Source: Rufibacter glacialis (GTDB taxonomy: Bacteria > Bacteroidota > Bacteroidia > Cytophagales > Hymenobacteraceae). Taken from it: DNA of 64,000 nt. Under the pieces are notes generated by a model that saw only the letters and a list, made by a program, of their open reading frames with translations, was not told the origin of the DNA and did no database searches. The position numbers and the translations under genes were made by a program. This document shows positions 3,785 through 64,000 of this stretch, piece by piece. The stretch is taken from assembly GCF_008271745.1 (NCBI RefSeq), contig NZ_VKKZ01000010.1, positions 587,677 through 651,676 of the forward strand, written 5' to 3'. Positions within the stretch are counted from its first letter, which is position 1. Every line of letters starts with the position of its first letter.

Positions 3785-3820
3785 GTTTGTAACCTGATTC
3801 GCTAAAATCAGGCCATAAAC
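3785..3820. repeat. PAL36 dispersed palindrome, copy 1
   Basis: Left end GTTTGTAACCTGATT and right end AATCAGGCCATAAAC around a short centre. It lies between gldH (stop at 3852) and the start of the EEP gene. Confidence 0.6.
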
Positions 3821-3851
3821 GGTTTTCACTGGATTTATCTGGTATTTATAG

Positions 3852-4337
3852 CTATTCGGTAGCTTTTTCCACGCGCACGCCAATGGCCATAATGCCTGGC
3901 AAAGGATCTTGGCGCATGTACTGCTGCACCCGCATCTGGTAGTTGCCCAACTGGTTGAACCTGATGTTCTTCAAAGCTCTGAACCGGTGGTCAAAGATAT
4001 CACCGGCGCCTTTGCCTTGGGGCTCGCCGGTCTTGGGGTCCATGAGGAACATCTCATGCAGCATGGAGTTCACCTGCTGGCCGTCTGGGCCTATGAGGTA
4101 ATGCCGCAGGTACAAGTTGTAGAAAGGGTAATGCAGGGCGTTGCGCACCGTGAAAAACACGTTGTACTGCTGGGTGGTGTCTGTGACCTCAAAGGTGAAC
4201 GAAGGGGTCAGTTTTACGGGCCACTGGTTGTCTGGAATGTCCTGCACCTCCTCAAAAACGCGGTTGGCGTCACAGCTAATCAGAAAAAGGCCCAGGCTGC
4301 ACAAAACAGCCAGGAAACGGAAACGCTTTCTCATCAT
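3852..4337 (-). CDS. gldH: Gliding motility lipoprotein GldH
   Basis: The 161-residue protein has a lipoprotein signal peptide ending in LISC (lipidated Cys22). It matches the GldH family by length and by features such as DIPDNQWP, FTVRNALHYPFYNLYLR and a C-terminal YQMRVQQYMR...GIMAIGVRVE region. In Flavobacterium johnsoniae GldH is a lipoprotein required for gliding, a system tied to type IX secretion, so it fits with the two sorting-domain proteins in this window. Its ATG overlaps the ricT stop as ATGA (4334-4337), so the two genes are translationally coupled. The start could be either of two adjacent ATG codons. The assignment is confident; whether this strain glides is not known. Confidence 0.92.
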   Translation of the reverse strand: MMRKRFRFLAVLCSLGLFLISCDANRVFEEVQDIPDNQWPVKLTPSFTFEVTDTTQQYNVFFTVRNALHYPFYNLYLRHYLIGPDGQQVNSMLHEMFLMDPKTGEPQGKGAGDIFDHRFRALKNIRFNQLGNYQMRVQQYMRQDPLPGIMAIGVRVEKATE

Positions 4338-5983
4338 GCTTCAGGTTGGGGGCTAGGAGATCCGCCTTCCGGCGCGCCGGGTTTGCGGTTACGGTGGCCG
4401 CGGTTACGGCTTCGTCTGCCGCGTTGCTCCCCTTCGGGCCTGGGGCCACGCTCTGGCCGGTCAGGGGTGGCCACGGTGGCATTGCCCAGCGCCTGAGCGG
4501 CCATGGGTTGGGGCTTGTTCTGGGGCGGACGCGGGTTCTGGGCGCGCTCCTGGCGGGGAGGACGGTTTCCTTCCCTGGGCGGACGACCTTGGTTCTGCTC
4601 CCGGTCAGCGCGGGGTTCGCGCTCAGGACGCGGCTTGCCTTGCGGCTGTTGGCCTTTGGCCTGGGCTTCACGCTCCGGTCTGGGCTTGTTCTCGCCTCCC
4701 TCTGGCCGGTTCCCGTTTCTCTCTGGCCTTGGTCTGCGCTCTCCGCCGGCTGGTCGGCCGGTGGGCTGGTCTCTGCGTGCTTCTGGGGTGGGGGCACCGG
4801 TGGCCAGGGCCTCGGCCGCTGGGGCCGTGCCTTTGCCTTTTTTCTTGTTGCGTTTTTTCTTGGCTTTGTACTGCTCGTCTAAGCGGTCCAGGTTGCCTTC
4901 CAGTGACTCCACAAAGTCTACCACCTCTGGCAGTTGCTTTTTCACTTCCTCGGCCAGGTTTTCAGGCATGTCGCCGGCGGCGTTCATCTTGAGCACCTCC
5001 TGCACGCGTTCTACCGGAACCGGGAACCAGTTGCTGTCGCCGCGGTACCCGAACCACATGATGCGCCGGAAAATGTCTGTCTTCTGCAGGAACGCGTCGC
5101 CGGCCTTGGTTTGCAAGGGACGGTTCACGTTGGGGATGTCTTTGAGGGCATCCATGTAGGTTTCCAACTCATAGTTCAGGCAGCACTTGAGGCGCCCGCA
5201 CTGGCCCGAAAGCTTGCTGGGGTTCAGAGAAAGGTTCTGGTACCGGGCCGCCGTGGTAGACACGCTCTTGAAATCTGTAAGCCAGGTAGAGCAGCACAGT
5301 TCTCGGCCGCAGGAGCCGATACCGCCCAAGCGTCCGGCCTCGTGCCGCAGGCTGATCTGGCGCATCTCAATCCGGACCTTGAATTCCTCAGCCAGTTTTT
5401 TGATCAATTCCCTGAAATCTACCCGGTCATCTGCTGAATAGAAGAACGTGGCCTTGGTCTTGTCTGCCTGGTACTCCACGTCTGAGAGCTTCATCTTGAG
5501 CTTGAGCTCCTGTACAATGGCGCGGGCACGGTACATGGTGGTGGGTTCCTGCTCGCGGGCGAGGTTGAACTTTTCCATGTCCTTTTCAGTGGCTACCCGG
5601 TAAATGCTCCGGATCTCGTCATTGTTCTGGACTTTCTTCTTGTTCATCTGCAGGCGAACCAGTTCGCCTTTGAGAGACACGTGGCCAATATGGTGCCCGT
5701 TGGGCACGTCTACCACCACGGCGTCACCGGTGATGAGCGGCAAGTGGTTGATGTTGCGGAAAAACTCTTTGCGGCCGCCTTTGAAGCGGACCTCAACTAT
5801 ATCAAACTCTTTGAAAGACACGGGAATTTCCATGTCTGAGAGCCAGTCAAATACATTTAATCGGTTACAGCCTCCCGTGCTGCAACCGCCGTTGCTTTTA
5901 CAGCCCGCTACTACTTCAGTGCCGTCAGGCGAAGAAGTGGTTTTGGAGCCGCAGCCGCCACTAGAACATGAACTACATCCCAC
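4334..5983 (-). CDS. ricT: PSP1/RicT family protein with Cys-rich N-terminus and basic disordered tail
   Basis: A 549-residue PSP1-domain protein. It begins with GTG (5981-5983), preceded by AAGGAA about 8 bases upstream; no better ATG fits the conserved N-terminus. Residues 3-39 carry six Cys (3, 6, 11, 28, 34, 39). The PSP1 core (about 55-285) contains the paired motifs CGRELCC (225-231) and CGRLKCC (262-268). Residues after about 375 are Pro/Arg/Glu/Asn-rich and probably disordered. In Bacillus, RicT (YaaT) works with RicA and RicF, binds iron-sulphur clusters and acts with RNase Y; the role in Bacteroidota is less clear. It is cotranscribed with gldH downstream (4-base overlap). Family assignment is strong; the partners and cluster binding here are inferred. 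Confidence 0.88.
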   Translation of the reverse strand: MGCSSCSSGGCGSKTTSSPDGTEVVAGCKSNGGCSTGGCNRLNVFDWLSDMEIPVSFKEFDIVEVRFKGGRKEFFRNINHLPLITGDAVVVDVPNGHHIGHVSLKGELVRLQMNKKKVQNNDEIRSIYRVATEKDMEKFNLAREQEPTTMYRARAIVQELKLKMKLSDVEYQADKTKATFFYSADDRVDFRELIKKLAEEFKVRIEMRQISLRHEAGRLGGIGSCGRELCCSTWLTDFKSVSTTAARYQNLSLNPSKLSGQCGRLKCCLNYELETYMDALKDIPNVNRPLQTKAGDAFLQKTDIFRRIMWFGYRGDSNWFPVPVERVQEVLKMNAAGDMPENLAEEVKKQLPEVVDFVESLEGNLDRLDEQYKAKKKRNKKKGKGTAPAAEALATGAPTPEARRDQPTGRPAGGERRPRPERNGNRPEGGENKPRPEREAQAKGQQPQGKPRPEREPRADREQNQGRPPREGNRPPRQERAQNPRPPQNKPQPMAAQALGNATVATPDRPERGPRPEGEQRGRRSRNRGHRNRKPGAPEGGSPSPQPEA

Positions 5984-6617
5984 AGGTCAATTTCCTTTAT
6001 ATAGATAATTCTTGTTTTCAATAAAATTATAACTCCCGCTGCCGGCAAGGCCTGGTACATGGTCCCCTGTAAATTGGTGATATTTCTTCCTGACTGTGAA
6101 GGTCTTGATGGGGAAGCCCAGGGGATAATGGACTTTCTAAAGCCTCTCTTCGGCAAAAACCGAGAGCCTAATTAACAAATATAATAACAAATCTGAATAG
6201 CCCGTTACTCTTTGCTGGGTTATCCACAGGCCGAATAGGGGCCGATTTGGTAAAAACGGCCCTCAAACGCCTGAATCCCCCAAACAAAAAAAGCCTTGCC
6301 AACCGTTCCTTTTTGACCATTTTCACCAGGGTATCCCTGAAAGAAAGTGGTTTCCTGCTCCCAAAAGTACCTATTGATACGCAAAAAGTCCTCTGCCGGC
6401 CCTGCCGGAGGCCTAAATCTTGACGGAGGAAGGTCCGGGTGATTAGGGAAGTGGTTTACTTATAGAAAGGAGCCAAGGCCCAGGAAGTCACAATAGCTGG
6501 AAAAGGGCCCACGTGCCAGGGCTACCGGCACCATAGGAGCGGGAGATGCGTTTTTGCGTAGATTTTGATTCTCACCTATGATTTTGTTATTTGGGCCGGA
6601 TTCTACTTGTTGCCCTT
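5984..6617. other. Divergent intergenic region between ricT and GNAT gene
   Basis: A 634-base gap between divergent genes. It holds one PAL36 copy (6233-6268), a single consensus DnaA-box word TTATCCACA (6220-6228), and presumably both promoters. The stretch 6553-6590 contains TTTG followed about 20 bases later by TATGATTTTG, a weak promoter candidate for the GNAT gene. I find no convincing gene. Confidence 0.5.
6233..6268. repeat. PAL36 dispersed palindrome, copy 2
   Basis: Left end GAATAGGGGCCGATTT, right end AAAACGGCCCTCAAAC. It sits between two divergent genes, one of the few copies not next to a stop codon. Confidence 0.5.
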
Positions 6618-7475
6618 ATGACCTTTGCCTTCGCAGAAACGGCTCCTCTTGGCCAGCTTTGTGCGCTTTTCAATGCCGCCTTCGCTGATTACCTCCTGCC
6701 TATGGTGCTCACGGAACCTATCATGGAACTGAAGCTGAAGCGCGACGGCACCAACCTGGCCTTGTCTCCGCTGGCCATGGAAGGTCCTGCCCCGGTAGGT
6801 TTTATCTTCACCAGCCTGGGCGAGTGGAAGGGTAAACGTACCGCCTATAACGGCGGCACCGGGGTACTTCCCCAGGCCAGGGGCCACAGGCTGACAGAAC
6901 AGATGTATCATTTCTGCGTGCCTCTTTTAAAGCAGCAAGGGGTTACGCAATGTCTGCTGGAGGTGATACAGGAGAATACCCGAGCCCTGGCGGTGTATAA
7001 AAAACTAGGGTTTGAGGTGGTGCGCAGCCTGCGGTGTTTCCGTCATCCAAAAGCCGATTTGCAGTGGCACCGGCACGCGCGCCCTGGGCAAGTCTCTTTC
7101 CAGCAGGTCTCTGTGCCCAATTGGGCTTTATACAAGGCATTTTGGGAGGTAGAACCCAGTTGGCAACACCACACGGCGGCTATTGACCGGAGCGCCGGCT
7201 ACGTGCACGTGGTGGAAGCCCAGGCGCAAGGCCAATGTGTGGGCTATGGGGTCATCTATGGCATGACCGGGGCCCTAGCGCAACTGGCGGTAGCACCTGC
7301 CTGGCGCCGGAAAGGAATAGGCCAGGCTCTGGTGCAGGAACTGGTCAACGCCACCACGTCACCTACCATAAGCGTGATCAACGTTGATGGCCGCGGGGAA
7401 AGCCTGCTCCAGTTTTTGCAGAACCGGAAAGCGGAGGAGATTCCAGGGCAATATGAAATGGTCTGGGCAATTTAG
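6618..7475 (+). CDS. Tandem-domain GNAT family N-acetyltransferase
   Basis: A 285-residue protein with two GNAT-like halves. The first carries an acetyl-CoA-binding motif near QARGHRLTEQM (about residues 85-95) followed by NTRALAVYKKLGFEVVRS; the second has APAWRRKGIGQALVQEL (about 225-241). I start it at the ATG at 6618; an upstream in-frame TTG at 6591 would add nine hydrophobic residues and is less likely. GNAT enzymes transfer acetyl groups from acetyl-CoA to amines of small molecules, peptides or proteins; the acceptor is unknown. A PAL36 element begins 8 bases after the stop. No operon partner is evident. The family call is firm, the substrate open. Confidence 0.85.
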   Translation: MTFAFAETAPLGQLCALFNAAFADYLLPMVLTEPIMELKLKRDGTNLALSPLAMEGPAPVGFIFTSLGEWKGKRTAYNGGTGVLPQARGHRLTEQMYHFCVPLLKQQGVTQCLLEVIQENTRALAVYKKLGFEVVRSLRCFRHPKADLQWHRHARPGQVSFQQVSVPNWALYKAFWEVEPSWQHHTAAIDRSAGYVHVVEAQAQGQCVGYGVIYGMTGALAQLAVAPAWRRKGIGQALVQELVNATTSPTISVINVDGRGESLLQFLQNRKAEEIPGQYEMVWAI

Positions 7476-7482
7476 AATGGCT

Positions 7483-7518
7483 GTTTCGGGCCAGTTTTAG
7501 CAGAAAGAACCCTAAATG
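7483..7518. repeat. PAL36 dispersed palindrome, copy 3
   Basis: Left end GTTTCGGGCCAGTTTT, right end GAAAGAACCCTAAATG. It begins 8 bases after the GNAT stop codon. Confidence 0.55.
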
Positions 7519-7574
7519 AAAACAATTCCCTTAAGGAGGGAAAATAAGGTTAGAAATTTAATGAATGCAGTACT

Positions 7575-8024
7575 ATGGTTTTAGATAAACTCTCCAACGC
7601 CTCGCGTTACACCCACATGCACCCCCTGTTTGCACAAGCCTTCCGGTTTTTGCAGGAAGCCGACATCACCCAACTTCCGGTTGGCAAGCATGACATTGCA
7701 GGCGACCAGCTTTTTGCCATGATCTCAGACGGCGAAGGCTTCTCCAAGCAAAAGGCGCGGCTGGAAGCCCATAAAAGGTACATTGACATTCAGTACGTGG
7801 TCACCGGCTGTGACCACATGGGCTGGAAAGACCTGGCCGCCTGTGAGGCCCCCAACGTACCGTATTCAGAAGAAAACGACATCGCCTTTTTCCCAGACCA
7901 GACCAACAGCTGGTTTGACGTTCAAGCCGGCAGCTTTACCATCTTCTTCCCAGATGATGCGCATGCGCCCCTGGGCACGGAAGAGGTAGTTCGTAAGGTA
8001 GTATTGAAGATTGCCGTGCAGTAA
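7575..8024 (+). CDS. YhcH/YjgK/YiaL family protein
   Basis: A 149-residue protein matching the YhcH/YjgK/YiaL (DUF386) cupin-like family across its whole length, with the characteristic LEAHKRYIDIQYVVTG segment (about 64-79), the acidic EENDIAFFPDQ region and FTIFFPDDAHAP near the C-terminus, whose His and Asp/Glu are likely metal ligands. Family members are linked to sialic acid and other sugar metabolism, and one is reported as a sugar anomerase/isomerase-like protein. No sugar-catabolism genes flank it here, so the substrate is not predictable. It appears monocistronic: a PAL36 copy lies between it and the GNAT gene, and strong hairpins follow. Confidence 0.88.
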   Translation: MVLDKLSNASRYTHMHPLFAQAFRFLQEADITQLPVGKHDIAGDQLFAMISDGEGFSKQKARLEAHKRYIDIQYVVTGCDHMGWKDLAACEAPNVPYSEENDIAFFPDQTNSWFDVQAGSFTIFFPDDAHAPLGTEEVVRKVVLKIAVQ

Positions 8025-14088: not shown

Positions 14089-14136
14089 GCCAATACGCTT
14101 TTAGCGAGATTTCCTGAAAAGAAGCCGCAAACCAGT

Positions 14137-16369: not shown

Positions 16370-16404
16370 GTTTTAGACCTGCTTTTCAGAAAAGACCTAC
16401 GAAT
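16370..16404. repeat. PAL36 dispersed palindrome, copy 7
   Basis: Left end GTTTTAGACCTGCTTTT, right end AAAAGACCTACGAAT. It overlaps the ftsH stop codon (16397-16399) and lies in the ftsH-LUD gap, so this copy is inside a probable operon. Confidence 0.55.
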
Positions 16405-18505
16405 TGTAGGTGGTGCCTTCTCCGGTGGAAGAAGGGGCACCCGTTGGTTCAGCCGCCGTTGGCGTGTCTTCCAGGTTTTGCTGGGCACCGGTTGGCGCGA
16501 TGATATGGTTTTCACCCGCCACCTCGCTTTGCGTCTTGCTGCGGTCTGTACCAGCCGTGTGGGCCTGGTAATTGGTTAAACCCTCAAAAGGCCTTGGTCC
16601 TACCAGACGTTCCAGGTCGCTTTGGAAGATGATCTCCTTCTGCAACAACTCCTGGGCCACTAATTCCAGTTCCGGGCGTTTCTGCGTGAGTAACTGAATG
16701 GTGCGGGTGTACGCGTCACTCACCAGCAAACGCACCTCAGAGTCTATCGTTTCAGCGGTAGTTTCTGAATAAGGCTTGGTAAACGTGTTGTCTGGCTGCT
16801 TAGAGTCATAGAAAGACAGGTTTCCAATGCGCTCGTTCATGCCGTACATGGTCACAATGCTATAGGCCATCTTGGTAATGCGCTCCAGGTCACTCAAGGC
16901 ACCCGTAGAGATTTTACCAAAGACAATCTGCTCTGCAGCCCGACCACCCAAGGCCATACACATTTCGTCTATCAACTGCTCTGTGTTGTACAGGAACTGT
17001 TCTTTGGGTAAATACTGCGCATATCCTAAGGCAGCTACGCCACGCGGTACAATGCTCACTTTCACCAACGGGTCACAGTGCTCCAGGAACCAGCCGGCAA
17101 TCGCGTGCCCGGCTTCGTGGTACGCCACGATTTTCTTTTCCTGCGGCGAGATGATCTTGTTTTTCTTCTCCAAACCACCAATCACACGGTCAATGGCATC
17201 GTTGAAGTCTTGCATCTCCACGGCCTTCTTGTTCCGGCGGGCGGCGATCAGGGCAGCTTCGTTACACACGTTCGCAATCTCGGCACCGGCGAAACCAGGG
17301 GTCTGGGCAGCTAACTTTTTGGCGTCTACGTCTCCAGACAAGGTCAAAGGCCCCAAGTGCACGCCAAAGATATGGGTACGGCCGTTGATGTCTGGTTTGT
17401 CAATGCTGATCTGGCGGTCGAAACGACCTGGGCGCAATAACGCAGAGTCCAAAATGTCTGGGCGGTTGGTAGCAGCCAGGATAATTACCCCAGAATCTGT
17501 GGCGAAACCGTCCATCTCTACCAGCAGGGAGTTCAGGGTGTTCTCGCGCTCATCGTTACCGCCGGGCATCTGCCCGCGGCTACGGCTACGGCCAATGGCG
17601 TCAATCTCATCAATGAAGATGATACAGGGCGCTTTGGCCTTGGCTTGCTTGAACAGGTCACGCACACGGGCGGCACCTACCCCCACAAACATCTCCACGA
17701 AGTCTGAACCAGACAGGGAGAAGAAGGGCACATCGGCTTCACCCGCCACGGCTTTCGCCAGTAAGGTTTTACCGGTACCCGGAGGACCTACCAGCAAGGC
17801 ACCCTTCGGGATTTTACCGCCCAGAATGGTGAATTTGGTGGGGTTCTTCAGGAATTCCACAATCTCCTGGATCTCTTCTTTGGCTTCTTCCAGGCCGGCT
17901 ACGTCTTTGAAGGTGATTTTCACCTTGTTCTCCGCGTCAAAAAGGGCGGCGCGTGACTTGCCTATGTTGAAGATCTGTCCGCCGGCTCCACCGGTGGCCA
18001 TACGGCGCATCAGGAACCAGAAGCCCACCATCAACAAGATGAAGAAAGGCCAGCCCATGAGCAGTTCCAGGAGTCCGGTGCGTTTCTCAATCTCCAGGGG
18101 TACGCGTTGCTCACGCGGTACCTCCGCCTGCATCTTGTCCAAGTCCTGCTTGAAACTTTCTGCGGTAATGATAGGGAAGTGGTAGTGGGCGCCTTGGGTG
18201 TTCATGCTGAAACTCCCGCGGCTCTCCAGTTCTGTCCGGTACTTCTCGTTTTTGAGGGCTTCCTCTTTCAAGGTCACCTCGGCCACGTTGTTATTGACCA
18301 CGGCCACTTTCTTCACATCCTGCGCCAGAAGCATTTCTTCAAAGCGCGGCTGTCTGATCTCAACCGTGGCGTTCAGGTTGTTATAGTAGGTAAGTCCGAA
18401 AATGAAAAGCACAAGTGCCGCCAGAACCCAGATCTGCATGGTAGGTCTAGGCGGGGTGGTGGGTATTATCTTTCTTTTTCTCTTTTTTTCTGGTTTTTCT
18501 GTCAT
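16397..18505 (-). CDS. ftsH: ATP-dependent zinc metalloprotease FtsH
   Basis: A 702-residue membrane protease. Transmembrane helices lie at about 23-41 and 147-167, with the periplasmic domain between. The AAA module has Walker A GPPGTGKT (240-247), Walker B IIFIDE (DE 299-300) and an SRH region around RPGRFDRQI; the zinc site is HEAGH (463-467). FtsH degrades membrane and short-lived cytosolic proteins, including lipid A enzymes in other bacteria, which makes lpxH in the same operon noteworthy but not proof of a link. The tail after about 645 is Thr/Ala/Gly-rich. It lies 46 bases after rsfS. Confidence 0.97.
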
Positions 18506-19756: not shown

Positions 19757-19792
19757 GATTCTGGCCTAGTTATTGTGAAAAGACCTGGAATT
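19757..19792. repeat. PAL36 dispersed palindrome, copy 8
   Basis: Left end GATTCTGGCCTAGTTAT, right end GAAAAGACCTGGAATT. A diverged copy just after the birA stop codon. Confidence 0.45.
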
Positions 19793-23706: not shown

Positions 23707-23756
23707 GAGGCAAAAAGAAAGGCCGGTTAGAAATAACGGGCCTTTCTTTTTGCCTC
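23707..23756 (+). terminator. Terminator of the DUF2723 gene
   Basis: An 18-base perfect stem, 23707-23724 with 23739-23756, with five A and five T placed within the stem. Confidence 0.8.
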
Positions 23757-23781
23757 TTTTTTCTAAAAACGGCACTTAAAC
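23746..23781. repeat. PAL36 dispersed palindrome, copy 9
   Basis: A diverged copy whose left end overlaps the terminator arm; right end AAAAACGGCACTTAAAC. Confidence 0.4.
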
Positions 23782-25050: not shown

Positions 25051-25099
25051 AAGCCTTTCGGGTCTGTTTTCTGTAAAACAAGCCCGAAAGGCTTTTTTT
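25051..25099 (+). terminator. rlmB terminator built on a PAL36 copy
   Basis: AAGCCTTTCGGG (25051-25062) pairs with CCCGAAAGGCTT (25083-25094), followed by a run of seven T (25093-25099). The interior is TCTGTTTTCTGTAAAACAAG, the PAL36 core, so this is PAL36 copy 12 (25055-25090). Confidence 0.85.
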
Positions 25100-30615: not shown

Positions 30616-30651
30616 GTTTAGGGCTACTTTTCCGGGAAACAGAGGGAAAAC
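30616..30651. repeat. PAL36 dispersed palindrome, copy 13
   Basis: Left end GTTTAGGGCTACTTTT, right end AAACAGAGGGAAAAC, right after the recQ terminator. Confidence 0.55.
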
Positions 30652-30707: not shown

Positions 30708-32015
30708 ATGAACGTTTTGATAATAGGAGCGGGCGGCCGTGAGCACGCCCTGGCCTGGAAAATCAGCCAAAGCCCTTATTGTGAGAGAATCTTCGTGGCC
30801 CCCGGTAACGCCGGAACGGCCCAGATCGCTACTAACGTAGACATTTCTACCACCAATTTTGAGGAACTGGCCAAATTCGCCACAGACTTCAACATCATGA
30901 TGCTGGTGGTGGGTCCAGAAGACCCTTTGGTAGCTGGTATCGTTGATTATTTCGCGGAAAGAGATTACCTGCAGCACATTCTGGTGGTTGGGCCGCAGAA
31001 AGCCGGTGCCCAGCTGGAAGGCAGCAAAGACTTCTCCAAGCAGTTCATGCTGAAGCACGGAATCCCCACGGCCCAGTACCAGACGTTCACCGCTACTACC
31101 TTTGACCAAGCCCTGGCCTACCTGCAGCAACACACGTACCCCGTGGTCTTGAAAGCCGATGGTCTGGCCGCCGGCAAAGGCGTGGTCATTGCCCAGAATT
31201 ATGACGAAGCCAGCGAAGCCATTACCGGCATGCTCAAGAACAACCAGTTTGGGAGCGCGGGCAGCAAAGTGGTGGTAGAGCAGTTCCTGCAAGGCATAGA
31301 GCTCTCGGCCTTCATTCTAACCGATGGCCAGGACTACGTGCTGCTGCCCGAGGCCAAGGATTACAAGCGCATTGGCGAAGGCGATACCGGGCTGAACACC
31401 GGGGGCATGGGCGCTATTTCCCCGGTGCCGTTCGCAGACAAGGCCTTCATGGACAAAGTGCGCGAGCGCGTGATTCTGCCTACCTTGCAAGGCCTTCGGC
31501 AGGAGGGAATCCACTATAGCGGCTTCCTGTTCATCGGGCTCATGAACACCAACGGTGACCCCTACGTGATTGAGTACAACGTACGTCTGGGTGACCCGGA
31601 AACAGAGGCCATCCTGCCCCGCATCAAGTCTGATTTGTTTGAGCTCTTCAAGGCGCTGCATGACCATGAACTGGGGCAGTTCCAACTGGAGGTAGATCCC
31701 CGGTCGGCCACTACCATTTTCCTGGTATCTGGCGGTTACCCGGGAGACTATGAGAAAGGCAAAGAAATCAAAGGGCTGGAGACGGCCTTGCCAGAGAATA
31801 CCCTTTGTTTCCAGGCTGGTACCAAGCAAACGGAGGAGGGCCACGTGGTCAACGATGGCGGAAGGGTCATTGCCGTTACGGGCTTAGGCCAGGACATGGA
31901 AGAAGCCCTGGCGAAAGCCAACGCCGCCGCCGCACAAATCACCTGGGAAGGCCGTAATTTCCGCCGTGACATTGGCTTTGACCTGAAGCAGTACCTGACC
32001 ACGCCTTCGCGGTAA
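30708..32015 (+). CDS. purD: Phosphoribosylamine--glycine ligase
   Basis: A 435-residue GAR synthetase. I start at the ATG at 30708 because MNVLIIGAGGREHALAWKI is the family N-terminus; the open frame upstream is not coding. Other hallmarks are GPEDPL, the ATP-grasp stretch GSKDFSKQFMLKHGIPTA, VLKADGLAAGKGVVIA, YNVRLGDPETEA and the C-terminal FQAGTK...GRVIAVTGLG. It catalyses the second step of purine synthesis. The sequence TAATCTTTG (30694-30702) is a near match to a -7 box; if real it would place the transcript start at or next to the ATG. It stands alone between terminators. Confidence 0.96.
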   Translation: MNVLIIGAGGREHALAWKISQSPYCERIFVAPGNAGTAQIATNVDISTTNFEELAKFATDFNIMMLVVGPEDPLVAGIVDYFAERDYLQHILVVGPQKAGAQLEGSKDFSKQFMLKHGIPTAQYQTFTATTFDQALAYLQQHTYPVVLKADGLAAGKGVVIAQNYDEASEAITGMLKNNQFGSAGSKVVVEQFLQGIELSAFILTDGQDYVLLPEAKDYKRIGEGDTGLNTGGMGAISPVPFADKAFMDKVRERVILPTLQGLRQEGIHYSGFLFIGLMNTNGDPYVIEYNVRLGDPETEAILPRIKSDLFELFKALHDHELGQFQLEVDPRSATTIFLVSGGYPGDYEKGKEIKGLETALPENTLCFQAGTKQTEEGHVVNDGGRVIAVTGLGQDMEEALAKANAAAAQITWEGRNFRRDIGFDLKQYLTTPSR

Positions 32016-32046
32016 AGCGGCTGGTTTCCGTAAAACACCCCAAAAA
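32014..32046. repeat. PAL36 dispersed palindrome, copy 14 (diverged)
   Basis: Starts inside the purD stop codon; CGGCTGGTTTCCGTAAAAC is the recognisable core. Confidence 0.4.
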
Positions 32047-32084
32047 TGACAAAGGCCAGCCACCACGCTGGCCTTTGTCATTTT
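32043..32084 (+). terminator. purD terminator
   Basis: An 18-base perfect stem (32043-32060 with 32067-32084), 6-base loop, ending in TTTT. Confidence 0.9.
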
Positions 32085-34440: not shown

Positions 34441-34762
34441 GGGTATGGGTGAATTTTAAGGTGGATTCTATTTCTGGGGTAAAATTACGAAATCAAGTGT
34501 AAAACACCGCAGTTACCTTTCTGGTTTCCAAAAGCATACTAATTCTCCCCTTAGAAAGCGATACAGATTCTTTTCAGGCTGTTCTTCAGCCGGCAGGAGA
34601 AACACCAGTGCCACCAGGGAATACTAAAGGAGTGTTAGGCTTGCATTAGTAAAGGGAAAAGACACTTAACAACTCCTTTAAGCCCAATGGGAACCGCAGG
34701 GCTAGGACCGAGGCTGCTTTGCCTGCTGGTGGCAGCCGTTCCCCGAAAACTTTTGTTTGAAA

Positions 34763-35289: not shown

Positions 35290-35508
35290 GTGTTGTAGGT
35301 AGTGCTACCACATAGATTGGTTTCCTTAATAGCAAAGGCTTGTCATAGAAAGCGAAACCCACGCGGGAGAAGATCCCAGAGGAGAGAGCCCAACTTTTCA
35401 GGGTGCCCGCTGCTTGGCCTCCCGGCATTGCGCTTCAGAAAAGTTGCCTTGGCCAACAATGCTTGGTCTCTGAAAAGAGAGGGAACTTGAAGTCAATCAG
35501 CGAGAAAG

Positions 35509-35543
35509 GTTCTGAGCCCATTTTCGTGAAATGCCCCTTAAAC
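35509..35543. repeat. PAL36 dispersed palindrome, copy 17
   Basis: Left end GTTCTGAGCCCATTTT, right end GAAATGCCCCTTAAAC, abutting the pyk terminator. Confidence 0.5.
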
Positions 35544-40289: not shown

Positions 40290-42152
40290 ATGAAACTTGC
40301 CGGCGCCGCCCTTAACCAAACTCCCCTTGATTGGGAAAACAACCTCCGTAACATCAAATCGGCTATTGAACAGGCCAAAGAAGAGCACGTAGACATTCTC
40401 TGCCTGCCTGAGATGAGTATTCCAGGGTATGGTTGTGAAGACCTGTTCCTGAGCGAGTGGGTGAGTGTGGAGTGTTTTGAGCGGCTGCTGGAGATAAAGG
40501 AATGGTGCGAGGGTGTGATCGTGTGCGTGGGTTTGCCCATTAGGCTGAACAACACCACCTACAACGCCGCCTGCGTCATCAAAAACAAAGAGATCCTGGG
40601 TTTCACGGCCAAGCAGTTCCTGGCTAATGACGGGGTGCACTATGAGCCGCGCTGGTTCAGTTCCTGGGTGCCCAACACCATTGAAGAGTTTGAAGCCTTT
40701 GGCCAGACCTACCAGATAGGGGACATCATCTATGAGCACCAAGGCATCAAGTTCGCCTTTGAGATCTGCGAAGACGCCTGGCGCAATGAGCACCGCCCGG
40801 CGTATCGGCATAAAGAGAAAGGTGTTCAGCTCATCATCAACCCCAGCGCCAGCCACTTTGCCATGAGCAAGACCGATGTACGCTACCGCTTGGTGGTAGA
40901 TGCGTCCCGGCAATTTGAGTGCACGTACCTGTACGTGAACCTGCTGGGCAACGAGGCCGGTAAGATGATCTATGACGGCGAGATCCTCATTGCGCAGAAT
41001 GGGTACGTTGTGCTCAGAAACCAGCTGCTTTCCTTCAAGAGCGTGGACTTTGAGTGCGCCGAAGTCTCTTTTGACGCGCCGCTGCCGCCTGAGACTGTGG
41101 ATTTGCTACCCGTAGACGAGAACCTGGAGTTCATTGCCGCTATTTCCCTGGCCTTATTTGATTATCTGCGCAAAAGCCGGAGCCGCGGGTTTGTGCTTTC
41201 CTTGAGCGGCGGGGCCGATTCTTCGCTGGTGGCCGTAGCCGTGGCCGAGATGGTGCGCCGGGCGGTGACCGAGATCGGGTTGGAGGAATTCGCCCGCAAG
41301 ACCAATTGCCTTACCCCCAATGAGGTCTCTGATTACAGCCAACTTTCCGGAAACGAGCTCAGAAACGTGGTGGTGAGCAAACTCTTGGTCACGGCGTACC
41401 AAGGCACCGTCAATTCCTCAGATGATACCTACCGCTCTGCGGAGGAACTGGCCAAATCTATTGGCGCCGTGTTCTACAACTGGACCATTGACGAGGAAGT
41501 GAAAAGCTACCAGGGCAAAATTGAGCACGCCATTGGCCGTACCCTCACTTGGGAACACGATGACATTACGCTACAGAACATTCAGGCCCGCGTAAGGGCT
41601 CCCGGCATCTGGATGCTGGCCAACCTCCGGAATTCCCTTTTGCTGGCTACCTCTAACCGGTCCGAAGCCTCTGTGGGCTACGCCACCATGGATGGCGACA
41701 CGGCCGGCAGCATCTCGCCCATTGCGGGCGTAGACAAATCCTTCATCAGGCAATGGCTGGTGTGGGCCCAGTTGGAACTAGGCTATGAAGGGCTGCAGTA
41801 CGTGAACAACCTGCAACCCTCTGCTGAGTTACGGCCCCTGGAAAACACCCAGACCGACGAGGAAGACCTCATGCCGTACCCGCTCCTGAACCAGATTGAG
41901 CGGCTAGCCTTCTATGAGCGTTTGTCGCCACAACAGGTTTTCGAGAAACTCAAAGGCACCTACCCAGATGACCAGTTGCGCCAGTTCGTGCAACGGTTCT
42001 ACACCCTCTGGAGCCGCAACCAATGGAAACGCGAACGCTATGCCCCGGCCTTCCACCTGGACGACTACAACGTGGATCCACGTAGTTGGCTCCGATTCCC
42101 TATCCTGAGTGGGAGCTTCCGGCAGGAGCTAAGTGAATTAGGGAATGCTTAG
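40290..42152 (+). CDS. nadE: Glutamine-dependent NAD+ synthetase
   Basis: A 620-residue two-domain enzyme. The N-terminal nitrilase-type amidase has the triad E41 (LPEMSIPGYGCED), K108 (FTAKQF) and C160 (FEICEDAW). The C-terminal synthetase has the P-loop SGGADSS (306-312) and, later, RAPGIWMLANLRNSLLLATSNRSEASVGYATMDGD. Ammonia released from glutamine is used to amidate deamido-NAD. Length and domain order fit the glutaminase-fused NadE class. It is monocistronic with its own promoter and terminator. Confidence 0.96.
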   Translation: MKLAGAALNQTPLDWENNLRNIKSAIEQAKEEHVDILCLPEMSIPGYGCEDLFLSEWVSVECFERLLEIKEWCEGVIVCVGLPIRLNNTTYNAACVIKNKEILGFTAKQFLANDGVHYEPRWFSSWVPNTIEEFEAFGQTYQIGDIIYEHQGIKFAFEICEDAWRNEHRPAYRHKEKGVQLIINPSASHFAMSKTDVRYRLVVDASRQFECTYLYVNLLGNEAGKMIYDGEILIAQNGYVVLRNQLLSFKSVDFECAEVSFDAPLPPETVDLLPVDENLEFIAAISLALFDYLRKSRSRGFVLSLSGGADSSLVAVAVAEMVRRAVTEIGLEEFARKTNCLTPNEVSDYSQLSGNELRNVVVSKLLVTAYQGTVNSSDDTYRSAEELAKSIGAVFYNWTIDEEVKSYQGKIEHAIGRTLTWEHDDITLQNIQARVRAPGIWMLANLRNSLLLATSNRSEASVGYATMDGDTAGSISPIAGVDKSFIRQWLVWAQLELGYEGLQYVNNLQPSAELRPLENTQTDEEDLMPYPLLNQIERLAFYERLSPQQVFEKLKGTYPDDQLRQFVQRFYTLWSRNQWKRERYAPAFHLDDYNVDPRSWLRFPILSGSFRQELSELGNA

Positions 42153-42742
42153 CGCACTTCCTTCTTTTTTGCCGGGAACTGTTTTACGGGCCTTTCTACC
42201 AAACTAAAGCAAAAACGCCATCCTTTAATAGGGTGGCGTTTTTACTGAAAACTATATTAGTTAGACCACGACAATTGCCACGTCTTTATCATTTCGCTCT
42301 AATAAGGCAAAATCGGTCACACCCATCAGAATCTGAAATTCCCGGTTTACCAGGGGCAGCAAAGCATTCGCCTTCCCCAAGGGCTTCATTTGCCTTATAG
42401 AAAGTGTGCCTCCTACTTAAATAGGGGATCTTCAGGGAAGTCCGTGAAGGACAGCTATATAGTAAATATCCAAAAAGTCTATATTCCAGAGTAAGCGCCC
42501 GCTTTCCCAAAAACTAGTTATTTTTTTGTGTTGCTAAAATACAAAGGACGAAGCCAAACCCGCATAAAAGGGCGTTGAAGGGGTGCTTTTGCCCTAAAAT
42601 TGTTATCCTGTAAAGATTTTAAATTACTATAATTAGAAATAAAAGGAATGTCATTGAATTATTTTTCAAATTTTTGGTTGTAACTTTTACACATCATGTC
42701 TTACCTGGTTTATAACCAGCCACTAATCAAACACAATATTTT
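42153..42742. other. Intergenic region upstream of the S8 protease
   Basis: A 590-base gap. It holds the nadE terminator and a possible degraded PAL36 copy near 42180-42203. The last 200 bases are AT-rich and probably contain the protease promoter (TAACTTTT near 42681 is a weak -7 candidate). A 73-codon minus-strand frame at 42289-42510 is not supported. Confidence 0.5.
42211..42243 (+). terminator. nadE terminator
   Basis: A 14-pair stem with one G-T (42211-42224 with 42230-42243), 5-base loop, ending in five T. Confidence 0.9.
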
Positions 42743-47565: not shown

Positions 47566-47600
47566 GTTTTGGGCTTGCTTTTCAAAAAACAGGCCTGAAG
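47566..47600. repeat. PAL36 dispersed palindrome, copy 20
   Basis: Left end GTTTTGGGCTTGCTTTT, right end AAAACAGGCCTGAAG, beginning 8 bases after the HD hydrolase stop. Confidence 0.7.
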
Positions 47601-47634
47601 GAGATGTTACAGACAAATTAAAAGTAAACTGCCT

Positions 47635-59711: not shown

Positions 59712-59713
59712 GA

Positions 59714-59753: not shown

Positions 59754-59772
59754 ATAATAAGGTGGTAAAGAC

Positions 59773-60096: not shown

Positions 60097-60100
60097 GGCA

Positions 60101-61114: not shown

Positions 61115-61170
61115 AAATGGTTTAGTAATTCTAACTGGCAGGCGGGCATCTGCTTTTCTGCCACTATAGG

Positions 61171-61200
61171 TCGCGCGCGCGCCTGAAAACAACTTTCAGG
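61171..61200. other. CG-alternating tract and small hairpin
   Basis: CGCGCGCGCGCC is followed by CCTGAAA/TTTCAGG (61182-61188 with 61194-61200). It lies between the FNR gene and lgt, which are divergent. Confidence 0.4.
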
Positions 61201-61270
61201 TTTGCGCCCACAAAGTAACATCATTTTCCGCTAAAGTGTTTCCCAAGAAGCTGAAGTGATGAAGTGATTC

Positions 61271-61300
61271 TTGTCACTCCTAGATTAAATTGTAATTTTA
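61271..61300 (+). promoter_or_regulatory. Candidate lgt promoter
   Basis: TTG (61271-61273), 19 bases, TAATTTTA (61293-61300); the final G of TAnnTTTG is A. Start near 61306, about 15 bases before the ATG. Confidence 0.4.
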
Positions 61301-61320
61301 GCCCCACTAACTGTTTCTAC

Positions 61321-62148
61321 ATGCTGAACTATATCACCTGGGATGTTTCGCCCGATATTTTCTCGCTGGGGCCTGTGACGGTACGCTGGTACGGTCTGCT
61401 GTTTGCCATGGCGTTTGTGCTCACGCAACCCATTGAGAAGTACATTTACCGCAAAGATGGCCGTACCGATGAGGACGTGGACATTCTGACCATGTACATG
61501 ATCATTGGCACCGTGATTGGCGCCCGCCTGGGGCACTGCCTGTTCTATGACCCCGGCTATTACCTTTCTAACCCGCTGGAGATCCTCAAGATCTGGGAAG
61601 GCGGCCTGGCCAGCCACGGCGGAACCCTGGGTATTTTGCTGGCCCTGTACATGTTCTGCCGCAAATACAAGTTTGATTACCTGTGGGTGCTGGACCGTAT
61701 TGTGATTGTGGTAGCCGTGGGCGGAGCCTGTATCAGGTTAGGAAACCTGATGAACTCAGAGATCATTGGCCGCCCCACTGATGTGCCGTGGGCATTCAAA
61801 TTCGTCCGGAACACGGAGATATTCAACGGCGTGCCGGCGTATATAGACCCGCGCCACCCCACGCAGCTGTATGAAAGCCTTTTCTGCGTGTTCCTCTTTG
61901 TTCTGCTGTACTTTCTCTGGAAACGAGGCGCCGGGCAGATCAGAGGCTTGCTGTTTGGTTTGTTTGTGACGTTGCTGTTCAGCTTCCGGTTTCTGGTGGA
62001 GTTCCTGAAAGAAAACCAGGAGGACTTTGAGAATGCCCTGCCGCTGAACATGGGTCAGTGGCTGAGTATTCCGTTGGTAGTGGTGGGCGTTGGCGTCTTG
62101 ATCTACGCGGCCCGGCAGCCCAGAACGCCTAACAAGATACCTGCTTAA
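61321..62148 (+). CDS. lgt: Prolipoprotein diacylglyceryl transferase
   Basis: A 275-residue inner membrane enzyme with about seven membrane helices. I start at the ATG at 61321 (MLNYITWDVSPDIFSLGPVTVRWYGL), the usual Lgt beginning; an in-frame ATG at 61264 lies before the promoter candidate. Signature elements are GARLGHCLFYDPGYY, WEGGLASHGG (catalytic His region), RLGNLMNSEIIGRPTDVPWAF and PRHPTQLYE. It adds diacylglycerol to the lipobox Cys of prolipoproteins; GldH, the MsrB and the 138-residue lipoprotein in this window are probable substrates. Confidence 0.96.
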   Translation: MLNYITWDVSPDIFSLGPVTVRWYGLLFAMAFVLTQPIEKYIYRKDGRTDEDVDILTMYMIIGTVIGARLGHCLFYDPGYYLSNPLEILKIWEGGLASHGGTLGILLALYMFCRKYKFDYLWVLDRIVIVVAVGGACIRLGNLMNSEIIGRPTDVPWAFKFVRNTEIFNGVPAYIDPRHPTQLYESLFCVFLFVLLYFLWKRGAGQIRGLLFGLFVTLLFSFRFLVEFLKENQEDFENALPLNMGQWLSIPLVVVGVGVLIYAARQPRTPNKIPA

Positions 62149-62150
62149 CC

Positions 62151-62186
62151 TAATTCAAGCTCCTTTTAAGAAAATAGCTTATAAAC
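62151..62186. repeat. PAL36 dispersed palindrome, copy 26 (diverged)
   Basis: Right end AAAATAGCTTATAAAC; directly after the lgt stop codon and overlapping the terminator by seven bases. Confidence 0.4.
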
Positions 62187-62229
62187 AGGAAAGCCCCGCA
62201 GCCATGGTTGCGGGGCTTTCCTGTTTATA
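62180..62229. terminator. Bidirectional terminator after lgt
   Basis: A 21-base perfect stem (62180-62200 with 62209-62229; core AGGAAAGCCCCGCA) with an 8-base loop, between convergent genes. Confidence 0.85.
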
Positions 62230-62254
62230 AAGAGGCCTGATTTGTTCTCTCAGC

Positions 62255-63097
62255 TTACAGCGAGAATTTGAACAGGTTGCCTTCTTCATTGGTGATGATC
62301 AGGTTCTTGTTGTCTTTGAACAGAACGGCTTCGGCTTGGCCGCCCTCTATCAATTCCAGAACCTTCGGAGTTTGGGTCAGGAACTGGCCCACTCCTTTAG
62401 AAGTAGGGAATAGGTACAGCTTGCCATAGGATAATACGGCCAGGTGCTTCCCGTCGGGACTCAGGTCAGCGGAGGTGACCATGCCGGGCAGTTCTTTCTT
62501 GCCCAGCAGTTTGGCCGTGTGGGTGCCGGCGTCGTCTGAAAGTTCGTACAGTTTGGCGTAGCGGCCCGCGCCACGGTCTTTGGAGATCAGGTACAGCTTG
62601 CCGTTGGCCCAGAAAAAAGCCTCGCAGTCAAAGTTTCGGGCTTCTTTGGGAATCTTGCCGGCCGGAAGGTCACTGTAGGTGAAGTTTATCTCCTGGGGCT
62701 TGAACCCGTTTTTCAGGGCTACCTTGTAGATGCGCAGGTTTTGCCGTTTGTTGCTGTTGTTGCCCATGTCTCCAATGTAAAGGTTGCCCTGGGTGTCACG
62801 GGCCAGGTCTTCCCAGTCTATGTTGGTGGCACCGGGCACGGCTATCTCCTGCAGCAACTTTCCTTTCTCGTTTATCTTGTAAAGCACTGGGGCATTGCCA
62901 GCATCATTATGGGTCCAGTAGGTGTGGGGTTCATCGGCTAGTTCCAGGCCAGAGCTCTCTACCACGGCGCTGGGCAGTTTAGCCAAGCGGGTAAGCGTGT
63001 TGGCCGCCGGGGCGAAGGCTGGCGCTGCACTACTGAGGGTAAACGCTAACGGAAGACTCAAAAAGAAACACCCTTTGAAAGAGGCGAAACGGTTCAT
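62255..63097 (-). CDS. Exported propeller-like protein of unknown function
   Basis: A 280-residue protein with a signal peptide (about 1-28, ending SSAAPAFA) and propeller-type strands: SGLELADEPHTYWTHNDAGNAPVLYKINEKG, IDWEDLARDTQGNLYIGDMGNNSNKRQNLRIYKV, FDCEAFFWANGKLYLISKDRG, VTSADLSPDGKHLAVLSYGKLYLF and the ending NKNLIITNEEGNLFKFSL. The NIDWEDLA-type and IGDMGNN motifs recall SdiA-regulated-like and other calcium-type propellers. No catalytic motif stands out; a hydrolase or binding role is possible. Monocistronic and exported to the periplasm or beyond. Confidence 0.78.
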   Translation of the reverse strand: MNRFASFKGCFFLSLPLAFTLSSAAPAFAPAANTLTRLAKLPSAVVESSGLELADEPHTYWTHNDAGNAPVLYKINEKGKLLQEIAVPGATNIDWEDLARDTQGNLYIGDMGNNSNKRQNLRIYKVALKNGFKPQEINFTYSDLPAGKIPKEARNFDCEAFFWANGKLYLISKDRGAGRYAKLYELSDDAGTHTAKLLGKKELPGMVTSADLSPDGKHLAVLSYGKLYLFPTSKGVGQFLTQTPKVLELIEGGQAEAVLFKDNKNLIITNEEGNLFKFSL

Positions 63098-63199
63098 GAA
63101 GTAAGGTATTAGGGGGAATACGACATCTTTTCGGCTGGGCCGTGCCCATTTTTAACGCAAAGCCTTTCCTTTGGTTAACCTGAGTTAGGTACCAGTCTT

Positions 63200-63234
63200 G
63201 TTTCTGGCCTGTTCTAAGAAAAGACGCCTAAAAG
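63200..63234. repeat. PAL36 dispersed palindrome, copy 27
   Basis: Left end GTTTCTGGCCTGTTCT, right end AAAAGACGCCTAAAAG, followed by the msrB terminator. Confidence 0.6.
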
Positions 63235-63238
63235 AAAA

Positions 63239-63266
63239 GCCCCGCCTCTTGTAAAGAGAACGGGGC
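63239..63266 (-). terminator. msrB terminator
   Basis: GCCCCG (63239-63244) with CGGGGC (63261-63266) plus an inner CTCTT/AAGAG stem. Confidence 0.7.
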
Positions 63267-63289
63267 CTGTACATAACCACCTGCCTGAA

Positions 63290-63871
63290 TCAATGGACCT
63301 GGAAGGCACCGGCCAAAGGTTCAAAGTCCAGGGCGATGGAGTTCATGCAGTAGCGTTTGCCGGTAGGGGGCGGGCCATCATCAAACACATGGCCCAGGTG
63401 CCCGTCACAGCGGCCGCAAAGCACCTCTATGCGCTCCATGTCCAGGGTCAGGTCTTCCTGGTACACCACGGCGTTTTTCCGGATGGTCTCAAAAAAGCTG
63501 GGCCAGCCGCAGTCACTCGCGAATTTGGCATCTGACTTGAACAGCTTGTTGCCGCAGGCGGCGCAGTAGTAGGTACCCCGGCCCGTGAAATTCCAGAGTT
63601 TACCGGTGAAAGCCCGTTCCGTGCCCTTCTTGCGGGAGATATAGTACACATCTTCGGGCAGCACTTTCTTCCACTCAGCGTCTGAGACGTGCAATTTGGC
63701 CGTGTCAGTGCGGGAGTAATACGGGTTTTTGGTCTGCTGCGGCGCTAGTGCCACTTTCTGCGAGGTCGTTATCACGGGAGCCTGGTCAGGTAAGGCGGCC
63801 TGAGGAGTGCTCCGCTGGCAGCTTAACATGGGCAGCAGCAGAAGAGCGTATAGAAGGAAGGTGTATTTCAT
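63290..63871 (-). CDS. msrB: Lipoprotein peptide-methionine (R)-S-oxide reductase MsrB
   Basis: A 193-residue MsrB with a lipoprotein signal peptide (MKYTFLLYALLLLPMLSC, lipidated Cys18) and a Pro/Gln-rich linker (about 20-50). The SelR domain (about 60-190) has two zinc-binding CxxC pairs (CAAC and CGRC), DCGWPSF, GHVFDDGP and the catalytic Cys in KRYCMNSIAL. I start at the ATG at 63871; a frame extension of 14 residues upstream would spoil the signal peptide. It reduces oxidised methionine in envelope proteins. Monocistronic. Confidence 0.92.
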   Translation of the reverse strand: MKYTFLLYALLLLPMLSCQRSTPQAALPDQAPVITTSQKVALAPQQTKNPYYSRTDTAKLHVSDAEWKKVLPEDVYYISRKKGTERAFTGKLWNFTGRGTYYCAACGNKLFKSDAKFASDCGWPSFFETIRKNAVVYQEDLTLDMERIEVLCGRCDGHLGHVFDDGPPPTGKRYCMNSIALDFEPLAGAFQVH

Positions 63872-63970
63872 TAGGCGGAAAAAATGGAAAAGAGGCTTGT
63901 ATGGCCAGAACAATCTGGTTCCTTATAAAGTTTGCAGGATTTTGCCGGGGCGCCAAATCAACGGGCTTCT

Positions 63971-64000
63971 GTTTAGGCCCTGCTTTTCATAAAACAGCAC
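63971..64000. repeat. PAL36 dispersed palindrome, copy 28 (cut by the window end)
   Basis: Left half GTTTAGGCCCTGCTTTT, then AAAACAGCAC up to the last base. Confidence 0.55.

Follow-up and report, generated by a model that had tools for sequence, protein, structure and literature searches.

PAL36, an abundant palindrome at transcription-unit ends in Rufibacter and a candidate site for a boundary-forming DNA-binding protein

The window analysed here is a stretch of 64,000 nucleotides of Rufibacter glacialis (assembly GCF_008271745.1, contig NZ_VKKZ01000010.1, positions 587,677 to 651,676 of the forward strand), and it carries many copies of an imperfect 36-base-pair (bp) palindrome that we call PAL36. 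This palindrome is a real element under selection rather than a product of chance, and it is found throughout the R. glacialis genome and in related genomes. We regard it as an evenly balanced proposition that PAL36 is a duplex site for a symmetric DNA-binding protein at transcription-unit ends, where it would act as a boundary. The sequence data establish the palindrome itself, with symmetric half-sites at constant spacing, its bias toward gene 3' ends, its positional retention in one region and its dialects; a protein, the contacts that it makes and a role as boundary are proposed from these patterns.

Number and form of PAL36

A symmetric 40-bp matrix built from the R. glacialis genome, applied to the window with a cut-off of 12 bits, finds 40 sites, 34 of which lie between genes, and only two when the window is reversed. 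At the cut-off of at least 15 bits used for the genome, there are 278–279 sites in 464 kb and seven in the reversed sequence, while 200 kb outside the training sequence hold 104 sites versus none when reversed. The 273 gaps (91 kb including 20-bp margins) contain 219 sites of at least 15 bits, and 20 dinucleotide shuffles of them yield a mean of 1.2 and a maximum of three. A chance origin of PAL36 is ruled out by these reversed, shuffled and untrained-sequence controls. The density is 0.5–0.6 sites per kb and the mean spacing is 1.6 kb, which by extrapolation from the sampled density corresponds to approximately 3,000 copies in the genome. Spacing is also more even than random placement in gaps would produce (coefficient of variation 0.93 versus 1.47).

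The consensus is yGTTT NN GGSCTGTTTT YNNR AAAACAGSCC NN AAACr, with the information concentrated on four tracts, namely the outer TT(T), the inner TTT, the inner AAA and the outer AA(A). Each half-site consists of a GTTT box and a GTTTT box located 11 bp apart. Among inverted pairs of half-sites with gaps of 3–5 bp, the gap is 4 bp in 150 of 192 pairs in R. glacialis and in 225 of 230 in R. ruber (genome G001), whereas half-sites in direct or everted orientation seldom pair outside the internal 11-bp register. There is no detectable surplus of single half-sites, as the 379 hits above the reversed control in R. glacialis are accounted for by the 192 inverted pairs.

Position at gene ends

In R. 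glacialis gaps shorter than 1 kb, PAL36 is present in 49/55 convergent, 104/203 tandem and 22/57 divergent gaps, at densities of 4.99, 2.68 and 1.37 sites per kb, respectively. The same order of densities is found in four of five further genomes of the genus (R. ruber, G013, G007 and G005). The exception is G006, where tandem gaps (3.20/kb) are denser than convergent ones (2.59/kb), yet convergent occupancy is still the highest (7/8). More generally, PAL36 is present in 146 of the 210 R. glacialis gaps of 60–1000 bp that lie 3' of a gene. Density is greatest where PAL36 abuts the stop codon: with the site centre at 20–30 bp, it reaches 20.8/kb in convergent and 9.7/kb in tandem gaps. Convergent gaps show a second peak 60–80 bp from the stop (12.1/kb) and densities of 1.3–3.7/kb at 100–250 bp. 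Of the sites in 81 tandem gaps of 200–700 bp, 40 fall within 100 bp past the stop, 10 within 100 bp of the next start and 28 between these two zones. The stop-proximal peak suggests a boundary function.

Among 33 pairs of PAL36 and an intrinsic terminator in tandem gaps, the terminator is upstream in 24, downstream in eight and overlapping in one. There is no detectable terminator in 75 of 100 occupied tandem gaps of 40–1000 bp. The number of intrinsic terminators per 100 kb is 24–31 in four samples of the genus Rufibacter, 37 in a second genus of the family (g2) and 12–28 in four further genera (g3–g6). The idea that PAL36 replaces intrinsic terminators is not supported, because terminators are not depleted relative to the four genera lacking the motif (24–31 versus 12–28 per 100 kb).

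Some sites lie within genes. The counts are 3/101 in R. ruber, 3/48 in G013, 1/33 in G007, 0/21 in G005 and 3/34 in G006. In R. glacialis genes of at least 100 amino acids there are 21 sites of at least 20 bits, and shuffled genes give none even at 15 bits; thus the genic sites exceed chance. The genic site of the window at 41331–41366 has counterparts of 38.3 bits in R. ruber and 30.9 bits in G013, the latter in that genome's own dialect (see below), and falls below 12 bits in 6 of 13 relatives. Three weaker intragenic matches look like coding conservation or chance. Sites in coding regions suggest that other positions, too, are tolerated or required by a binding protein, as would be expected of a nucleoid protein or an uptake mark.

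Some sites are promoter-proximal. In the window, one copy precedes a PF06491-matching gene and another a gene for an HD-domain protein, each by about 50 bp, and similar distances recur in 12 and 9 Rufibacter loci, respectively.

One stretch of about 20 kb (L011:16001–20000 together with L012:1–16000) has 36–37% GC in a sample of 52% GC, few called genes, and three and two PAL36 sites per 10 kb. It is possibly acquired DNA.

Retention of position and species dialects

Positional retention was assessed over the first 45 kb of the window, using 15 further genomes of the genus. Among 311 cells, each an orthologous gap in one relative, PAL36 is present in both genomes in 164, in R. glacialis only in 19, in the relative only in four and in neither in 124; we attach no p value to this table because the cells are related by descent. 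The species matrices used here were trained partly on the same sequence. The R. glacialis matrix alone, applied to 10 genomes, gives 122, 11, 0 and 85 cells in the same order, in agreement with the larger table. Two gaps carry PAL36 in all 16 genomes. In three genomes of other genera there is no site in 21 orthologous cells, eight of which are occupied in R. glacialis. Beyond the 45-kb region, 13 gap pairs comprise eight with sites in both, four with sites in neither and one with a site in the relative only.

When orthologous single sites are aligned, identity reaches 0.92 for tract positions, 0.72 for 28 informative columns and 0.44 for the variable columns, compared with 0.40 in ungapped flanks. 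Therefore, in the 45-kb region the positions are old, and the sequence of the sites has been held while the surroundings turned over.

The sites are nevertheless spelled differently among species. In G013 the inner boxes read CTCATTT...AAATGAG where most other genomes have CTGTTTT...AAAACAG. The dialect of G005 is GTTTAGGGG, and that of G007 and G014 is GTTTTTGG. At orthologous positions, CA is found in 12 of 14 half-sites of G013 where R. glacialis most often has GT or GA, and TT occurs at positions -2 and -1 in 13 of 16 cases in G007 and 12 of 14 in G014. The spelling of a site at a shared position thus goes with the species, and it does so on both arms. The simplest inference is that PAL36 sites may have changed spelling in place. 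Retention of positions at gene ends while the spelling differs by species points to a putative DNA-binding partner.

PAL36 sites in the window

The first-pass annotation of this DNA had counted about 28 copies, a figure that the matrix scan revises to about 34 intergenic ones. Its ten best copies and a further copy at 25051 were found at the positions given, with offsets of 0–4 bases. Two positions that it had described as touching stop codons, 16397 and 32013, fall in the sites at 16370–16405 and 32012–32047, both of which overlap a stop. Its estimate of at least a dozen copies near stops was about right, since 11 of the 34 intergenic sites overlap a stop or lie within 15 bp of one, and the absence of PAL36 from short operon-type gaps is borne out in relatives as well. 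The statement that no copy lies inside a coding region holds for 34 of the 40 sites but fails for the six inside called genes, five of which score 13.0–19.3 bits and one (41331–41366) 24.8 bits. The copy at 25051, thought to have become a terminator, is the site at 25055–25090, which indeed lies within a longer hairpin followed by a run of T. Scans of the window against Rfam and for tRNAs gave no matches. The following sites are given without strand.

3785–3820: PAL36, 30.8 bits; gap occupied in 7/7 relatives compared
6233–6268: PAL36 in a long divergent gap, 27.6 bits; 9/9 relatives compared
7483–7518: PAL36, 7 bp past a stop, 27.0 bits
8159–8194: PAL36 in a convergent gap, 31.6 bits
10043–10078: PAL36, 23.6 bits
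10249–10284: PAL36, 26.8 bits
11031–11066: PAL36, convergent, 2 bp from a stop, 38.2 bits; 8/8 relatives compared
14097–14132: PAL36, 4 bp from a stop, 24.8 bits
16370–16405: PAL36 overlapping a stop, 26.1 bits; 11/14 relatives compared
19757–19792: PAL36, 7 bp past a stop, 16.0 bits; 15/15 relatives
23746–23781: PAL36, 29.9 bits
23813–23848: PAL36, 32.9 bits
24071–24106: PAL36, 22.9 bits
25055–25090: PAL36 within a longer hairpin, then a T run (flanking sequence), 31.6 bits
26158–26193: PAL36 overlapping a stop, 22.2 bits; gap occupied in only 1/9 relatives compared
30616–30651: PAL36 downstream of a terminator-like hairpin and T run, 27.2 bits; 15/15 relatives
32012–32047: PAL36 overlapping a stop, 25.4 bits
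33754–33789: PAL36 in a convergent gap, 29.9 bits
33923–33958: PAL36 in a convergent gap, 31.1 bits; gap occupied in 14/14 relatives compared
34470–34505: PAL36, 50 bp upstream of the PF06491-matching gene, 19.6 bits; 10/11 relatives compared
35508–35543: PAL36 in a convergent gap, 21.8 bits
39970–40005: PAL36, 12 bp past a stop, 28.8 bits; 13/13 relatives compared
41331–41366: PAL36 inside an open reading frame (ORF) of 620 amino acids, 24.8 bits; at least 12 bits in 7/13 relatives
42181–42216: PAL36, 25.8 bits
46843–46878: PAL36, 41.3 bits, the highest score in the window; 49 bp upstream of the HD-domain gene
47566–47601: PAL36, convergent, 8 bp past a stop, 33.1 bits
50253–50288: PAL36, 27.9 bits
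50370–50405: PAL36, 25.9 bits
53197–53232: PAL36, 26.3 bits
54344–54379: PAL36, 21.8 bits
55536–55571: PAL36, 23.4 bits
58700–58735: PAL36, 3 bp from a stop, 32.9 bits
59676–59711: PAL36, 30.2 bits
62151–62186: PAL36, 2 bp past a stop, 24.5 bits
63199–63234: PAL36, 24.6 bits

Occurrence in other genomes

A scan of 84,980 species for the exact PAL36 core returned at least 118 stretches, and all matches listed are from Rufibacter or Sabulibacter ruber, both members of the Hymenobacteraceae. Whole-genome counts of the core pattern, allowing up to three mismatches and accompanied by a control pattern, give 167 matches in R. glacialis and from 38 to 1,685 in the other 15 genomes of the genus; all 16 carry PAL36. 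Outside the genus there are 0–4 matches in each of 21 genomes from the other genera of the family and 22 from the order, with 0–1 for the control throughout. A set of 117 genomes from across the phylum, a few of which overlap the family and order set, likewise gives 0–4 matches (control 0–3). Low pattern counts within the genus are due to dialect (G013) or to weak sites (G009), and matrices retrained for each species recover 0.42–0.80 sites per kb in 13 sampled genomes. Scanning this and related genomes, as the first-pass annotation had proposed, thus finds PAL36 genus-wide, and in R. glacialis gaps it lies far above the shuffled sequence. The 1,685 matches belong to R. ruber, which has many more near-consensus copies than the others, as if selection or copying were stronger in that species.

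Other repeats were also seen. Two genomes of the same phylum (G061 and G066) have a few near-identical copies of a repeat of the type GGCCTGTTTG...CAAAAAGGCC, possibly a family unrelated to PAL36. In four stretches of one genome of genus g3 (G017, L201–L204) there are 15–16 copies of several inverted pairs with a fixed gap, such as ACTGT-N31-ACAGT and CGGTC-N8-GACCG, which probably form a repeat array.

A different motif in a related genus

Another genus of the family, g2 (genomes G016 and G021), carries a high-copy motif of its own, ACTTTTt-N6-AAAACgaTASCGTTTT, which is asymmetric and unlike PAL36 and whose A/T tracts are 11–12 bp apart. There are 161 sites versus six controls in 140 kb of G016, or approximately one per kb, and 29 versus three in 40 kb of G021. 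The core pattern has 608 matches in G016 and 95 in G021, compared with 0–9 in 57 other genomes (control 0–9). In G016 this motif is present in 11/13 convergent, 31/55 tandem and 7/12 divergent gaps. Neither strand is preferred with respect to genes (22 opposite, 19 same). Called genes contain 54 of the 129 sites.

In 35 gaps that are orthologous between g2 and Rufibacter, the two genera agree in 27 (13 occupied in both, 14 in neither), while six are occupied in g2 only and two in Rufibacter only (p 0.0016); for some gaps, G016 and G021 each contribute a count. In the order both, g2 only, Rufibacter only and neither, a length-matched subset gives 4/2/0/7 (p 0.02) and tandem gaps alone give 7/4/2/8 (p 0.08). 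Two smaller samples gave 9/1/0/11 (p 3e-5) and 3/0/2/5 (p 0.17), and we prefer the largest sample of 35 gaps. The correspondence suggests, but does not prove, that the g2 motif and PAL36 do the same job.

Pairing between the arms

If the arms of PAL36 acted as a hairpin, then partner positions would co-vary within a genome. In R. glacialis sequence chosen independently of the motif, the paired fraction is 0.526, versus 0.515 when the arms are permuted between copies (z 2.5 overall and 1.6 at stem positions). Comparable sequence from G013, G007, G006 and G009 gives z from -1.7 to 2.3, and R. ruber sequence taken by place gives 0.728 versus 0.727. Some sites do extend into longer hairpins: in 11 of 279 R. 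glacialis sites, where about 0.1 would be expected, pairing continues beyond the core for at least six more consecutive positions, and some of these sites are terminator-like. Compensatory changes between orthologues number 1040 versus 583 with arms swapped between species, an excess that is confounded because symmetric dialect change yields an equal signal.

Template-switch correction of quasi-palindromes is a possible source of perfectly paired copies. We read PAL36 as a duplex site, of which a minority of copies would have been turned into hairpins by co-option or by such correction.

A proposed protein-bound boundary and its alternatives

The mechanism that we favour begins with a putative abundant and symmetric protein, dimeric or tetrameric, for which PAL36 would be the double-stranded DNA recognition site. 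The protein would contact four A/T tracts, these being the GTTT and GTTTT boxes about 11 bp apart in each half-site, with the half-sites inverted around 4 bp. Most transcription units would retain such a site at their 3' end, usually in the interval that separates the stop codon or terminator from the following unit. Bound at this place, the protein would most likely form a boundary, perhaps as a nucleoid anchor, a supercoil barrier or a fail-safe roadblock that isolates neighbouring units. Its specificity would have drifted, with the sites following in place as species dialects. Symmetric half-sites at a fixed spacing, with arms that vary independently, are what would be expected of a binding site and are what is found, a minority of perfect copies excepted. 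Sites of parS, matS, Noc and SlmA are likewise palindromic double-stranded DNA sites with symmetric conservation, but PAL36 differs from them in having about 3,000 copies per genome, in its tie to gene 3' ends and in its restriction to one genus. A more tentative and rather doubtful extension is that PAL36 constitutes a lineage-specific insulator, wherein one protein would mark most transcription-unit 3' boundaries through thousands of sites, with dialects tracking its specificity, and another genus would mark many of the same boundaries with a different motif.

Several observations weigh against a protein-bound boundary. No binding protein was found, and among the 85 genes with promoter-proximal sites, most of which lack annotation, there was nothing convincing as an autoregulated binding gene; these include the two conserved cases noted above (PF06491 and the HD-domain protein) and one PadR-like regulator at a single locus. 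In the 464 kb of R. glacialis, 46 of 279 sites are inside called genes, which does not fit a pure boundary role. The presence of PAL36 is not associated with the presence of a terminator in either tandem (p 0.70) or convergent (p 0.35) gaps. Positional retention rests mainly on one 45-kb region. Five further genera of the family, sampled by one genome each, show no comparable density of PAL36, and therefore a boundary role would not be universal. Finally, the arms may not be fully independent. Overall pairing reaches z 3.7–7.0 in 8 of 13 genome sets, all eight with stretches chosen by exact match to the motif, and with the seeds removed, excess pairing persists mainly at the spacer (position -1:24 has z of about 3–4 in several species). 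Perfectly paired copies number 4 of 320 in R. glacialis (0.03 expected) and 10 of 102 in motif-independent R. ruber sequence (1.7 expected).

The main rival, which we consider unlikely, is that PAL36 is a mark of self-DNA like the DNA uptake sequences (DUS) of the Neisseriaceae, spread by biased uptake and recombination, accumulating in permissive DNA, and changing dialect with the receptor. Its copy number, 1.6-kb mean spacing, dialects and mostly intergenic location with some coding sites are DUS-like, and DUS are reported to lie mostly between genes and sometimes directly past stop codons (PMC3630211, PMC2397512). The likeness to DUS and uptake signal sequences (USS) extends to thousands of copies (for PAL36 an extrapolated total), a spacing of about 1–1.6 kb and frequent inverted pairs, and it is joined by the more even than random spacing within gaps and by the different high-copy motif of another genus in the family. 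ComEC is encoded in 16 of 16 genomes of the genus but is equally present in motif-free relatives (34 of 35 genomes), and is thus uninformative. However, PAL36 differs from uptake sequences in being a 36-bp palindrome with a fixed 4-bp centre and no surplus of lone half-sites. PF00437, the ATPase of type IV pili and type II secretion, exceeds the cut-off in none of the 16 genomes (sub-threshold in eight), whereas 13 of 14 controls exceed it. Moreover, sites are sparser in the middle of long convergent gaps, a presumably permissive place, than close to the stops. A repetitive extragenic palindromic (REP) family, once moved by a transposase of the REP-associated tyrosine transposase (RAYT) type and now mostly decayed and partly domesticated, is a rather improbable explanation. 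Like REPs and the bacterial interspersed mosaic elements (BIMEs) that they form, which carry GTAG/CGTC tags and are linked to TnpA-REP/RAYT, PAL36 is a high-copy extragenic palindrome within the range of 20–40 bp, and a similar preference for convergent and unidirectional gaps is described for REPs (PMC3733652; see also PMC12306157 and PMC8049555). The PAL36 consensus has no such tag; it is fully symmetric and fades outside yGTTT/AAACr, as judged on the consensus and not copy by copy. This is not decisive, because a RAYT subclass of the Bacteroidetes is reported to have atypical hairpins and not tagged REPs (PMC6006769). In motif-independent R. ruber sequence there are 13 near-identical pairs (at least 34/36) versus 1.5 expected, consistent with copying, as are its 1,685 pattern matches. 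In R. glacialis the excess of similar pairs (at least 28/36) is slight, at 54 versus 34, with a maximum of 30 versus a null maximum of 31. A search for a RAYT-type transposase, as the first-pass annotation had advised, found Y1_Tnp matches in 15 of 16 genomes of the genus but none in G007, which has 697 pattern matches. Among 14 RAYT-like ORFs examined (from 18 loci), 11 have PAL36 within 300 bp, but these sites are 89–288 bp away and not at the ORF ends, so that no cognate RAYT flanked by the element is seen. Vertical inheritance of sites at orthologous positions in the tested region, with dialects there, also disfavours a REP origin.

We consider very improbable the remaining possibility that PAL36 is an RNA hairpin at mRNA 3' ends or a bidirectional terminator. 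It resembles intrinsic (Rho-independent) terminators in being an inverted repeat at gene 3' ends and common to convergent genes, and the sites with additional pairs, including 25055–25090 with its T run, the perfectly paired copies above the null, and the compensatory changes, subject to the confounding noted above, are all in its favour. However, the consensus lacks a GC-rich stem followed by a 3' T run, and just a few copies are joined to terminator-like hairpins. In the consensus the 5' arm carries T and the 3' arm A, the reverse of what an intrinsic terminator requires. Stem positions stay below z 2 in eight of the 13 genome sets, and every one of the other five includes stretches chosen by exact match. 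Rufibacter has intrinsic terminators at a frequency like that of genera lacking PAL36, these mostly precede PAL36 in shared tandem gaps, and the g2 motif has no strand bias relative to genes. Among the three guesses offered in the first-pass annotation, a protein-binding site thus appears best supported, although no protein was found. A mobile REP-type element is not favoured, given the shared positions, missing tag, absence of Y1_Tnp matches from G007 and only slight excess of similar copies in R. glacialis, and a 3'-end RNA signal is weakened by pairing near the permuted level and by a palindrome past the terminator in 24 of 33 tandem pairs. The enrichment that it had reported toward gene 3' ends is upheld by the convergent, tandem and divergent ranking and by the peak just past stops. 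Its selection on structure is right as to selection, but is better read as acting on a symmetric DNA sequence, with perfect hairpins being only a minority.

Sequences and methods

Genes were called with a custom hexamer caller, and gene starts are therefore approximate. Stretches chosen by exact match (L035–L152) are biased toward perfect PAL36 copies; their seeds were removed in one arm co-variation test only and were kept in the similar-copy test and in the pairing test on 13 sets. For R. ruber, both the pairing and similar-copy tests were repeated on stretches taken by place and not by motif. Motifs in other genera were sought by expectation-maximisation, for which a reversed control is invalid with palindromes, and the evidence for the g2 motif is the whole-genome pattern count together with a matrix control. 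The g2 sequence comprised stretches L170, L211–L214, L243–L246 and L267–L276.

Implications

A search of the literature on Rufibacter palindromes and related terms, which excluded most subscription journals, gave no description of this element among the matches listed. We are not aware of any REP, uptake sequence or nucleoid-protein site that is present at most gene ends, stays at the same ends throughout a genus and is also spelled in dialects at those positions. If PAL36 were instead an uptake mark, it would be the first that we know of in the Bacteroidota and the first without type IV pili. If a protein binds PAL36, then Rufibacter would have a dense bacterial boundary system, and its dialects would show a protein and thousands of its sites co-evolving.

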